A program made the position numbers and the translations under genes. Below the pieces are notes generated by a model, which saw only the letters and a program-made list of their open reading frames with translations, did not search any database and was not told the DNA's origin. Source: Aquimarina longa SW024 (GTDB taxonomy: Bacteria; Bacteroidota; Bacteroidia; Flavobacteriales; Flavobacteriaceae). From it: a stretch of DNA of 64,000 bases. Below, piece after piece: positions 32,117-35,622 of this stretch (within the stretch, counting starts at the first letter, position 1; every line of letters starts with the position of its first letter). The DNA lies in assembly GCF_001401755.1 (NCBI RefSeq), contig NZ_KQ474106.1:125916-189915 (forward strand), given 5' to 3'.

Positions 32117-32602
32117 ATGAGTAAAGTAGGGGTAATAATGGGCAGTACTAGCGATATGCCAATAATGGAAAAAGCTATAGAAATATTACAAAGTTTTGAT
32201 ATAGAAGTAGAAGTTGATATTGTCTCAGCGCACCGTACACCAGATAAATTGTTTGATTATGGTAAAAATGCTCATAGTAGAGGGATAAACGTTATTATTG
32301 CAGGAGCTGGCGGCGCTGCACATCTTCCTGGCATGATAGCCTCTCTATCTCCTCTACCAGTAATAGGTGTACCTGTTAAATCCCGTAATTCTATAGATGG
32401 ATGGGATTCTGTTTTATCTATTCTACAGATGCCTGGTGGAGTACCCGTGGCAACGGTAGCCTTAGATGGCGCATTAAATGCAGGTATTTTAGCAGCACAG
32501 ATTATAGGTACTAATGATACATTAGTTTTGGATAAAATTATAATGTATAAAGAAGGCTTAAAACAAAAGGTTATTGAAGGAGCTAAACAAATTAAAAGAT
32601 AG
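32117..32602 (+). CDS. purE: N5-CAIR mutase (PurE)
   Basis: Converts N5-CAIR to CAIR directly after PurK. The signature 'VGVIMGSTSDMPIMEKA' opens the protein, followed by 'SAHRTPDKLFDY' with the conserved His near residue 40, and 'AGAGGAAHLPGMIAS' near 63-77. Its 161 residues fit class I PurE. It is co-directional with purK. Confidence 0.96.
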   Translation: MSKVGVIMGSTSDMPIMEKAIEILQSFDIEVEVDIVSAHRTPDKLFDYGKNAHSRGINVIIAGAGGAAHLPGMIASLSPLPVIGVPVKSRNSIDGWDSVLSILQMPGGVPVATVALDGALNAGILAAQIIGTNDTLVLDKIIMYKEGLKQKVIEGAKQIKR

Positions 32603-33020
32603 CCACAACCATTTTTAAAAACAAAAATAGCAGTTCTCTCCTCCTTTTTTATGTGGATCTCAAATATTTGATTCAGACTATTCAATAGAATCTCATAAAG
32701 CTTTAAATGAATTCTAACCTATTTCGGAATGACAATGACGGTAAAAACAATATCACATCGTTGTCATTCCGAAGTAGGTTGTAATTTACAATAGAATAAA
32801 ATAAGTTTTTATTTTTTCAAGATTTTATAATCATTTATATATCTATAATCAATAACTTTAGGGACATTTTCTATGAGATATATCTTTCTAAAGATATTGT
32901 ATTATAGCAATTAGAGATAAAGCGTTATAAAACTATTCCTACTCAATTGTAGATCAAAATGTATTTATAGTATAGTAGTTTCTGGCAATAAATTAATAGT
33001 TGAAGAAATAAAATGATATC
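32603..33020. other. gene-free stretch downstream of purE
   Basis: The left part of the roughly 1-kb gap 32603-33597. It has no open frame worth calling. It contains the inverted repeat described at 32716-32780, with GAATCTCATAAAG about 20 bases before it; otherwise it is AT-rich with nothing recognisable. Confidence 0.6.
32716..32780. repeat. long inverted repeat, REP/MITE-like
   Basis: Left arm AACCTATTTCGGAATGACAA (32716-32735) and right arm TTGTCATTCCGAAGTAGGTT (32761-32780) differ at one position over 20 bases, across a 25-base loop. The core TTGTCATTCCGA is GC-richer than the genome and resembles dispersed intergenic palindromes I have seen in Bacteroidota and other genomes. Only one copy lies in this window. 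Confidence 0.6.
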
Positions 33021-33053
33021 AAAAAAAAAGAGCCACTCCTCAGTGACTCTTTT
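33021..33053 (-). terminator. intrinsic terminator of predicted small RNA 1
   Basis: On the minus strand AAAAGAGTCACT pairs with AGTGGCTCTTTT across a GAGG loop with one mismatch, followed by T-run to 33021. Confidence 0.8.
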
Positions 33054-33150
33054 GAATATCAGGTCTTATAAAAGAATATAACAATATTTATTAACCAACT
33101 TAAATATATTACACAAAAAAATTCAATATAAGACCATTACTCTTAAAACC
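33022..33150 (-). ncRNA. predicted small RNA 1 (about 130 nt)
   Basis: Consensus-spaced promoter elements at 33156-33186 would start a minus-strand transcript near 33150, and a strong hairpin with nine Ts ends it near 33022. No open frame fits inside. The transcript can fold into a rod: a 9-bp closing stem pairs 33127-33135 (TATAAGACC) with 33062-33070 (GGTCTTATA), then a large internal loop, then an apical stem from 33083-33094 with 33100-33110 and a 5-base loop. Closing stem, central bubble and terminal stem recall 6S RNA, but identity with a known family is inference. Confidence 0.55.
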
Positions 33151-33155
33151 TGAAA

Positions 33156-33186
33156 CAAAGGTAAAACCTTACTTTTGTTACACAAA
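33156..33186 (-). promoter_or_regulatory. promoter of predicted small RNA 1
   Basis: On the minus strand TTTG (33186-33183), exactly 19 bases, then TACCTTTG (33163-33156). Both elements and the spacing match the Bacteroidota TTTG-N19-TAnnTTTG consensus. Confidence 0.65.
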
Positions 33187-33334
33187 AAAAGTAATGTTAA
33201 AATATTCCACATTTCGACAAAAAGCATATATACTCGTCAAAAAACACAAAAAAACCAATTATTCTTATTTTTTCAGTATTGAAGTAGGTGAAAAAACACG
33301 AAATAACAACTAAAAACAATGTAGAAATCAAAAA

Positions 33335-33463
33335 TAGAAAGAAAAAGAGCTACAATAATTGTAGCTCTTTCAATATATTTGGTCATTGTATTAGAACGAT
33401 TATTAATATTCATACCCCTAATAAAAATAATCGACGATACTAACACTAGACCATACTAATAAA
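33335..33463 (-). ncRNA. predicted small RNA 2 (about 125 nt)
   Basis: A second minus-strand unit with its own promoter (33470-33503) and terminator (33344-33370) and no coding frame. The transcript folds into a long rod of three stems: 33449-33453 with 33380-33384 (GACCA/TGGTC), 33440-33446 with 33388-33394 (with a wobble pair), and 33426-33433 with 33397-33404 (AATAATCG/CGATTATT). Internal loops separate the stems, and an apical loop contains TTAGGGGTATG (minus strand). The nested complementarity is unlikely to be chance. It is not assigned to a family. Confidence 0.5.
33344..33370 (-). terminator. hairpin terminator of predicted small RNA 2
   Basis: Twelve-base arms AAAGAGCTACAA and TTGTAGCTCTTT are exact complements around a 3-base loop. 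The better T-rich tail is on the minus strand (TTTTTCTTTCTATTTTT), so I assign it there. Confidence 0.7.
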
Positions 33464-33469
33464 CCTGAT

Positions 33470-33503
33470 CAAATCTATCAGTATAAAATTTAGTTTAGTC
33501 AAA
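33470..33503 (-). promoter_or_regulatory. promoter of predicted small RNA 2
   Basis: On the minus strand TTTG (33503-33500), a 22-base spacer, then TAGATTTG (33477-33470), a perfect TAnnTTTG. The spacer is at the long end of the usual range. Confidence 0.45.
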
Positions 33504-33597: not shown

Positions 33598-35622
33598 ATG
33601 ATTACCAATCCATTATTAAAACCATTCGACATAGCTCCGTTTTCTAAAATAACATCAGATCATTTTTTACCAGCAATAAAAAACGGTATAGCAATTGCAA
33701 AACAAGAAGTAAATACTATAACTTCTAATAATGAGCCACCTACATTCTCTAATACTATAGAGGCTTTGGATTATTCTGGAGAATTATTAGATAGAATAAC
33801 CAGTGTATTTTTTAATCTAAATAGTGCAGAGACTACTGATGAAATTCAAAAAATAGCACAAGAAGTATCTCCTCTGCTCTCAGAATTCAGCAATGACATA
33901 GCACTTAATTTAGATTTATTTAAACGAATTGAAGTAGTTTACCAACAAAGAGAATCTTTAATGCTAACTCCTGAACAATTTAGGCTTGTAGAAAAAAGAT
34001 ATCGTTCTTTTTCTAGAAATGGTGCAAATCTTCCGGAAAAAGAAAAAGAAAAACTCAGAAAAATAGATACCGAGCTTTCTACATTAAGTCTAAAATTTGG
34101 TGAAAATATATTGGCAGAAACAAATAAGTTCGAAATGTTGCTTACTAATGAATCAGACCTAACAGGTTTACCAGAAGGTGCAAAAGAAGCAGCAAAAGCT
34201 ATGGCAAAAGCTAAAAACAAAGAAGGATGGTTAATAACTCTAGATTATCCTAGCTATATCCCATTTATTACTTATGCTGATAATCGCGAGTTACGCAAAA
34301 AAATATCTCTTGCCTTTGGAGCCAAAGGTTTTCATGATAATGATTTAGACAATCAAGAGATTGTATTAAAAATCGCAAACCTTAGACATCAACGTGCACT
34401 ATTATTAGGATACTCTTCTCATGCAGATTATATTCTCGAAGAACGAATGGCAGAAACTCCTGATAGAGTATTCTCTTTTCTGAATGAAATCCTAGAAAAA
34501 GCAAAACCTGCAGCTGAGAAAGAATTTAAAGAACTAGAGGCTTTTGCCAAAGAACTAGACGGAATTGATCGACTTCAAAAATGGGATGGAGCTTATTATT
34601 CTGAAAAATTGAAGCAAAAACGCTTTGATTTAGATGATGAAAAATTGAAACCATACTTTAAATTAGAAAATGTAATTAATGGAGTCTTTACTATTGCCAC
34701 AAAATTATTTGGACTTCAGTTTGAAGAAATAGATACCGTAGATAAATATCATGCAGAAGTAAAAACATATCGTGTCACAAATCTTGAAAATAATTTCGTC
34801 TCTTTATTTTATGCTGATTTTCACCCTAGGTCAGGAAAACGTAATGGAGCATGGATGACTTCTTATAAATCACAAATGATAAAAAGTGATAAAAATATAA
34901 GACCACACGTTTCTATCGTATGCAACTTTACAAAACCCACTCCTAGCAAACCATCATTATTAACCTTTAATGAGGTTACTACTCTATTCCATGAATTTGG
35001 TCATGCATTACATGGTATGCTAGCAAATACGACATATCCAAGCTTATCAGGTACTAATGTATACTGGGATTTTGTAGAATTACCTAGTCAGGTACTAGAA
35101 AACTGGTGTTATGAAAAAGAAGCTTTAGAGCTTTTTGCCAAACACTATGAAACAGAAGAAATAATCCCTATGGAATTAGTTAAAAAAATCAAAGAGTCTT
35201 CGACTTTTATGGAAGGTATGGCAACATTACGTCAATTAAGTTTTGGATTACTCGATATGGCATGGCATTCAAAAGATCCAAGTACCATTAAGAATGTAAA
35301 GGAATATGAAGAAAAAGTTTTTTCGACAACTTCTCTATACCCTAATGTAAAGGAAAATTGTATGAGTACCGCTTTTTCTCATATTTTTCAGGGAGGATAT
35401 TCTGCAGGATATTACTCATACAAATGGGCTGAGGTATTAGATGCAGATGCTTTTGAATATTTTAAAGAAAATGGAATTTTTAATCCTGAAATCGCAGCAA
35501 AGTTTAAAGAACATGTATTAGCAAAAGGAGGTACAGAAAATCCAATGATTCTTTACAAACGTTTTAGAGGTCAAGAACCTAAACCTGAAGCGTTATTAAA
35601 AAGAGCAGGATTGATAAAATAA
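33598..35622 (+). CDS. M3-family metallopeptidase (oligopeptidase A / Dcp type)
   Basis: A cytoplasmic zinc oligopeptidase of 674 residues that degrades short peptides. The zinc motif HEFGH is at residues 465-469 (FHEFGHALHGML), and the third ligand Glu follows in 'YWDFVELPSQVLENW' (about 485-499). 'FSHIFQGGYSAGYYSYKWAE' near residues 599-618 carries the substrate-binding His/Tyr residues of the Dcp/OpdA group. There is no signal peptide. It is convergent with the M28 peptidase gene and shares a terminator with it. Confidence 0.93.
   Translation: MITNPLLKPFDIAPFSKITSDHFLPAIKNGIAIAKQEVNTITSNNEPPTFSNTIEALDYSGELLDRITSVFFNLNSAETTDEIQKIAQEVSPLLSEFSNDIALNLDLFKRIEVVYQQRESLMLTPEQFRLVEKRYRSFSRNGANLPEKEKEKLRKIDTELSTLSLKFGENILAETNKFEMLLTNESDLTGLPEGAKEAAKAMAKAKNKEGWLITLDYPSYIPFITYADNRELRKKISLAFGAKGFHDNDLDNQEIVLKIANLRHQRALLLGYSSHADYILEERMAETPDRVFSFLNEILEKAKPAAEKEFKELEAFAKELDGIDRLQKWDGAYYSEKLKQKRFDLDDEKLKPYFKLENVINGVFTIATKLFGLQFEEIDTVDKYHAEVKTYRVTNLENNFVSLFYADFHPRSGKRNGAWMTSYKSQMIKSDKNIRPHVSIVCNFTKPTPSKPSLLTFNEVTTLFHEFGHALHGMLANTTYPSLSGTNVYWDFVELPSQVLENWCYEKEALELFAKHYETEEIIPMELVKKIKESSTFMEGMATLRQLSFGLLDMAWHSKDPSTIKNVKEYEEKVFSTTSLYPNVKENCMSTAFSHIFQGGYSAGYYSYKWAEVLDADAFEYFKENGIFNPEIAAKFKEHVLAKGGTENPMILYKRFRGQEPKPEALLKRAGLIK

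Follow-up and report, generated by a model that had tools for sequence, protein, structure and literature searches.

The DNA analysed here is a 64,000-nt stretch of the Aquimarina longa SW024 genome (contig NZ_KQ474106.1; this whole stretch is called the window below), in which the gap between purE and a gene for an M3-family peptidase holds two units on the minus strand, in each of which a TAnnTTTG-type promoter precedes a body of about 125 nt that ends in a hairpin terminator (Table 1). The limits given for unit 1 are predicted ones, its 5′ end (33151) being set at the conserved start of the RNA and its 3′ end (33021) at the end of the terminator T-run; this terminator is T-rich on the opposite side too, and may also terminate the plus-strand purE mRNA. 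The TAnnTTTG promoter type fits the organism, since among the 8-mers found upstream of genes TACTTTTG shows the strongest over-representation in the parts of two Aquimarina genomes that were scanned; the upstream TTTG of unit 2 is missing in some relatives. Abutting the -7 box of unit 1 lies AAAGTAAGG (minus strand, 33164-33175), which is conserved nearly as well as the promoter and forms with the box an imperfect dyad, a possible operator. Directly after purE (32716-32780) there is also a near-perfect inverted repeat, CCTATTTCGGAATGACAA ... TTGTCATTCCGAAGTAGG, which gave a sub-threshold match to the Rfam family mir-2008 and looks like a repeat or a MITE-type hairpin.

Table 1. Genes and predicted RNA features between purE and the M3-family peptidase gene (window positions).
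Feature	Position	Strand	Basis or remark
purE (AIR carboxylase)	32117..32602	+	PF00731, 208 bits; convergent neighbour
Unit 1 sRNA body	33021..33151	-	R1 model match 33022-33151, 132.2 bits; genus conservation; fold
Unit 1 terminator hairpin and U-run	33021..33053	-	4 of 12 pairs changed on both sides
Unit 1 closing stem, 3′ arm	33062..33070	-	partner 33127-33135
Unit 1 invariant core, terminal stem-loop with UUGGUUAAUAAAUA	33074..33121	-	41 nt from GTGTAAT onward identical in 31 of 31 copies
Unit 1 closing stem, 5′ arm	33127..33135	-	partner 33062-33070
Unit 1 proposed seed AGGUUUUAAGAGU	33139..33151	-	complement of start-codon-proximal sites
Unit 1 promoter	33156..33186	-	TACCTTTG 33156-33163, TTTG 33183-33186, 19 nt between
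Unit 2 sRNA body	33340..33466	-	R2 model match 33343-33466, 119.1 bits; fold
Unit 2 terminator hairpin	33344..33370	-	100% of cells paired
Unit 2 loop AGGGGTATG	33411..33419	-	conserved
Unit 2 closing stem, 5′ arm	33448..33453	-	partner 33380-33385; 3 of 6 pairs changed on both sides
Unit 2 5′ end AGGTTTATTAGT	33455..33466	-	resembles unit 1 5′ end
Unit 2 promoter	33470..33503	-	TAGATTTG 33470-33477, TTTG 33500-33503, 22 nt between
M3-family peptidase gene	33598..35622	+	PF01432, 468 bits; divergent neighbour

Judged from their sequences, both neighbouring sRNA genes look real and conserved. Each body folds better than all 200 of its dinucleotide shuffles (z -4.73 for unit 1 and -4.90 for unit 2). 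Double-sided pair changes in the closing stem and terminator number 5 in unit 1 and 4 in unit 2; the shuffled means are 2.5 and 1.6, and among 500 shuffles none reached the unit 1 count and one reached that of unit 2. Within the closing stem of unit 1, one of the nine pairs has changed on both sides and four on one side, with 99.0% of cells paired; the 14 pairs of the upper stem are all invariant and hence lend that stem no covariation support, and the last 4 nt of the seed (GAGU) are paired in the predicted fold. These results bear out much of a preliminary description made from the letters of the window, which had proposed two complete tandem units on the minus strand (now backed by conservation in the genus and by covarying closing stems and terminators), TAnnTTTG boxes with TTTG at 19 and 22 nt, hairpin terminators at 33021-33053 and 33344-33370, structured bodies with nested complementarity, a unit 1 layout in which a large internal region lies between a 9-bp closing stem and a terminal stem, and the unit 2 loop sequence; the compensatory changes that it expected in an alignment of relatives are present in both units. 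An own promoter, a structured non-coding body, and an intrinsic terminator, as expected of a trans-encoded sRNA, can all be recognized in the sequence.

The two units are probably tandem paralogues. Their covariance models match across units, which suggests paralogy: unit 2 ranks second among the window matches of the unit-1 model (32.5 bits, E 3.6e-6), and unit 1 is recovered by the model of unit 2 (35.6 bits, E 6e-4). Their 5′ ends are also alike (AGGTTTTAAGAGTAATGGTCT in unit 1 and AGGTTTATTAGTATGGTCT in unit 2). A point against paralogy is that matches carried by the terminator score 35-37 bits elsewhere, and the global similarity of the units is weak, with 23 of 1000 shuffles aligning as well.

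A 561-bp stretch of the locus matches 48 of 52 Aquimarina genomes, the own genome included and some of them weakly, and gives weak matches in 3 of 39 genomes from other families of the order. Among 66 Aquimarina genomes, the R2 model of unit 2 matches in 48, the complement of the core 15-mer is present in 58 (some of these matches lying off the locus), and the seed is found at the sRNA locus in 52; a recognized copy of one or other part is missing in 8 to 18 of the 66, some of which are incomplete. The 30 aligned loci hold 31 copies of unit 1, and both the 13-nt 5′ end AGGUUUUAAGAGU and the 41-nt core from GTGTAAT onward are identical in all 31. The unit-2 alignment has 27 rows: three loci (L009, L029, and L031) gave no row by the search pattern, copies in L009 and L031 being recovered later by the R2 model, and one extra copy in L023, which has no matching terminator, was left out. 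Further copies occur as three unit-2 matches in one genome (G013) and two full copies of unit 1 in another (G023). Two divergent Aquimarina loci (L497 and L498, in G007 and G035) keep the core and have an apparently different 5′ end.

The invariant 5′ end of unit 1 carries the positional signature on which its predicted function is built. When k-mers were counted at 352 gene starts, drawn from 464 kb of the own genome, the complement of this end ranked top for unit 1 (TTAAAACC, 9 vs 1.8; TAAAACCT, 8 vs 1.7). Its exact 13-mer complement, ACTCTTAAAACCT, occurs at 129 places in the 66 Aquimarina genomes, 54 of which, assigned to the sRNA locus by position, are the source of the 52 genomes given above; the 75 off-locus places (17 among the 30 loci and 58 from fetched stretches) were inspected individually, a site being counted as start-type when a sense ORF starts at most 45 nt downstream and the site lies outside any longer frame. 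By this definition 37 of the 75 are start-type, the ATG following the site by 5-8 nt in 30 of the 37, and the other 38 are not. Start-type contexts number 0 of 29 for the reversed 13-mer (29 inspected of 43 places) and 179 of 6334 (2.83%) for composition-matched 13-mers in 864 kb of two Aquimarina genomes, where an ATG at 5-8 nt is found in 23 of the 6334 (0.36%). At gene starts, TTAAAACC occurs 6 times in the own genome (1.02 expected) and 4 times in a second Aquimarina, G011 (0.73 expected), from whose gene starts TAAAACCT is absent. Strong duplexes (-8 kcal/mol or better) exceed those of 58 of 60 seed shuffles in the own genome, 2 of 60 being as high; in G011 there are 12 against 10.1 for shuffles, with 22 of 60 as high. 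Unit 1 hence shows a conserved seed complementary to unlinked mRNAs near their starts. For unit 2, judged by its 5′ 12-mer, no such seed was found, 0 of 27 off-locus contexts of the complement being start-type (with slightly different limits, and one match per genome in 30 genomes, three of which are the sRNA itself); the complements of its 5′ end and loop gave no signal at gene starts.

With a probability that we put at about three in four, the two units are genes for trans-acting sRNAs, arranged in tandem and probably paralogous, and the unit 1 seed blocks initiation on mRNAs. The signature might also be read the other way round, with ACTCTTAAAACCT-N5-8-ATG as a cis-acting signal for translation or transcription that the sRNA 5′ end matches for another reason, for example as a decoy; the tight spacing of 5-8 nt to the ATG would suit an initiation element as well, and the seed lies near the predicted transcription start of the sRNA itself. 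We consider this unlikely on several grounds. In the opposite orientation 6 of the 75 places are start-type, against 37 in the sense orientation, and four of the six begin with the same TetR-like residues and apparently represent one TetR-type coding region. Ribosomes of the class Bacteroidia reportedly do not recognize Shine-Dalgarno sequences (PMC9976891, PMC8710568). The signature is also without enrichment in a Christiangramia with a different sRNA 5′ end, where TTAAAACC occurs once at gene starts (0.95 expected) and the duplexes show no excess (46 of 60 shuffles as high).

The 37 start-type targets fall into 24 blastp families and are not independent, because 11 of them form a single cluster of peptides and two are identical TssD copies. 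The cluster peptides are 54-60 aa long, several with a Gly-Gly-like leader by eye, and one weakly matches, below the cut-off, the family 'Ribosomally synthesized peptide in Bacteroidetes'. The TssD/Hcp targets of the type VI system (PF17642) comprise an identical pair in the own genome and a single copy in G001; a third own-genome TssD gene has an imperfect site (-12.1 kcal/mol). A fatty-acyl-AMP-ligase/NRPS-like target is present in two genomes (scanned in one, where it stays below NCBIfam cut-offs). Further targets, among the part that was scanned, are a GH18 protein, a catalase, a peptidase C39-like protein, a DUF6443 protein, a protein with ricin-lectin and Toxin_10 domains, a weak beta-helix match, and FG-GAP repeat and fascin/DUF7910 proteins, with several giving no match. 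In our reading, the targets would be mainly exported or competition-type products.

The core of unit 1 extends beyond the genus. At least 80 loci in named genomes bear it, 66 of the 80 listed adjoining purE and/or the M3 gene; among the matches listed, those that adjoin come from Aquimarina, Gillisia, Christiangramia/Gramella, Salegentibacter, Salinimicrobium, Leeuwenhoekiella, and Dokdonia. The six genera other than Aquimarina carry the core variant TTTAGAATGGTTAATAAAT at the same locus, and the closing-stem sequence differs among them, single-sequence folds recovering a closing stem in some, not all, of 12 examples. Of the 291 family genomes that have purE, 80 from the better-scoring part of the list supplied stretches beside this gene; among these 80, the M3 gene is adjacent in 73, the core is present in 8, a motif that we call class B in 27, and neither in 45. 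The class B motif, [AG]TTAATAGC ahead of a terminator, occupies the purE/M3 place in other Flavobacteriaceae (L104, L114, L128, L166, L174, L178, and others, doubled in L128 and L178), and the candidate sRNA to which it belongs has a small hairpin such as GAGTTGGTTACTC or GAGTGACTAACTC, followed by TTGATTAATAGC and the terminator. The R1 model of unit 1 gave a match in 32 of 299 family genomes, among which two Aquimarina and two members of genus g32 were accepted; for the match in G201 (L045), the core lies at purE (L107). The matches in L036, L037, and L038, three alignments that were inspected, owe their score mostly to the terminator and were rejected.

Such synteny could be explained if the RNAs acted mainly in cis on purE, as a 3′ UTR antisense or a shared terminator, and the terminator hairpin does have a T-run on the plus-strand side as well. 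The body of unit 1 lies outside the purE frame, however, and in the window ends some 420 nt past that frame; a shared terminator, moreover, would not require the core or the 5′ end to be invariant, so that we regard a role confined mainly to purE as very unlikely.

The core also raises the question of coding. The preliminary description had seen no coding frame in either body, which holds for the copies in the window, where unit 1 has by reading no ATG in frame, and does not extend to every copy in the genus, since 19 of the 31 aligned unit-1 copies have an ATG frame of 19 aa through the core and two more have frames of 21 and 23 aa. That unit 1 is a small mRNA whose core encodes a 19-aa hydrophobic peptide is nevertheless hardly credible, given that the other 10 of the 31 copies reach at most 9 aa, the length of the T-run (5-8) shifts the frame, silent changes are absent throughout the 41-nt core, and other genera carry the core with different flanks.

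The same description had pointed to 6S RNA or another known flavobacterial family, which finds no support here; the results favour a base-pairing regulator for unit 1. Rfam covariance models gave no match at gathering score anywhere in the window. The idea that unit 1 is a second 6S RNA, binding RNA polymerase with a central bubble that mimics an open promoter, has in its favour the shared outline of a large central region between a closing and a terminal stem, and is scarcely tenable given that the 6S-Flavo model (RF01685, gathering 85) finds nothing at the sRNA locus up to E 10 and finds the genome's own copy on contig 16 (G000:C16:23464-23571, 103.8 bits, cut-off 85), that the 14 invariant upper-stem pairs give no support, and that a 6S reading does not predict a start-codon signature. 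Flavo-1 (RF01705, gathering 42), also a flavobacterial sRNA family, likewise has no match in the window at gathering and none at the locus up to E 10, the genome's four matches over the cut-off lying elsewhere. In the relative G038, a Flavo-1 RNA (66.5 bits, L023 2397-2480) lies near the sRNA locus as a separate RNA. Other permissive Rfam matches, such as mir-2008 and DapZ at the locus and MicC and Phe_leader in related loci, are below gathering scores and were taken as chance.

In the trans-acting sRNA reading, the invariant core would be a shared scaffold or a second contact site. In 7 of the 14 listed core loci away from purE and M3, a signal-peptide-like protein starts downstream of the core complement (the frame of one, L185, being cut by the end of the stretch), in 2 the core complement lies upstream of a mini-ORF that precedes a lipoprotein gene, and the other 5 look like chance, some with short ORFs nearby. 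Across 24 genomes of Christiangramia, TTAACCATTCTAAAT is present at 60 places, counting the sRNA loci, and its reverse at none; the 34 distinct contexts that were read have a lipoprotein-like ORF 7-26 nt downstream in 13, represent the sRNA in 8 by rule and about 5 more by eye, and precede a mini-ORF in about 7. As these lipoproteins look like paralogues, the target events are not independent. Core complements at Aquimarina gene starts show no clear enrichment. Six Christiangramia loci (L193, L195, L478, L481, L486, and L494) have the core complement a second time, ahead of a conserved mini-ORF; the mini-ORF consists of ATG, a few codons, and TAA, is followed by GTCACTCCC, and precedes lipoprotein genes at those loci whose downstream part was read. 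This second copy is possibly a leader or a sponge. In a Leeuwenhoekiella sp. MAG (L250), a core complement ends 4 nt before the start of a curlin-repeat protein (PF07012).

We know of few base-pairing sRNAs that have been worked out in Bacteroidota outside Bacteroides, and we found no published report of this RNA in the accessible portions of the literature on Aquimarina, flavobacterial and Bacteroides sRNAs, 6S-Flavo/Flavo-1, and T6SS regulation. By analogy, the best reading is that unit 1 works like the FopS sRNAs of Bacteroides, a comparison drawn from their published description. FopS sRNAs are reported to bind next to the start codon of susC mRNA and to block translation; they are about 65-70 nt long, have 14 scattered copies in B. 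thetaiotaomicron, and mostly target SusC-type PUL genes (PMC11697453). As described there, FopS/GibS RNAs are like unit 1 in being paralogous sRNAs with a conserved 5′ seed and in start-codon-adjacent pairing on mRNAs of surface or exported proteins, which in unit 1 is predicted from sequence. The units of the purE locus differ in that they are about 125 nt, lie in tandem at one syntenic place, and have other predicted targets. A second likeness is with Rfp18 of Flavobacterium psychrophilum, one of 85 RNAs newly described there, which is reported to be genus-conserved with predicted base-pairing targets among exported proteins; it differs in that its reported pairing region is the third stem-loop, and its deletion lowered two protease mRNAs (PMC9723704). 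The main text of that paper gives no locus for Rfp18, and 'purE' occurs in it 0 times (PMC9723704).

We therefore envisage, as a model, that unit 1 would be transcribed from its own TAnnTTTG promoter into an RNA with a closed stem-loop and a terminator, presenting the 13-nt 5′ seed AGGUUUUAAGAGU in mostly single-stranded form. The seed would pair with mRNAs roughly between positions -18 and -6 relative to the start codon, where pairing would cover the initiation site, and thereby block initiation, while the core, the complement of which precedes Christiangramia lipoprotein genes, could serve as scaffold or second contact. Because FopS blocks translation next to the start codon, repression is the likely outcome here too, with activation also conceivable, and unit 1 would then probably turn down translation of many genes for secreted proteins, peptides, and secretion systems.

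The invariant seed, the quantified start-codon signature, and the named candidate targets make the predicted regulon testable at once. If the trans-acting sRNA reading is true, a single RNA would connect type VI secretion with the production of peptides in marine Flavobacteriaceae, members of a class whose ribosomes reportedly do not recognize Shine-Dalgarno sequences (PMC9976891). A wider proposal, which we offer tentatively and regard as rather doubtful, is that a modular sRNA scaffold resides beside purE in several genera of Flavobacteriaceae, combining an ultra-conserved stem-loop with lineage-specific reading of targets, through the 5′ seed at type VI, peptide, and exported-enzyme start codons in Aquimarina and through the core on lipoprotein mRNAs in Christiangramia, and that it would hold back weapons and surface products in this family as a master post-transcriptional brake.
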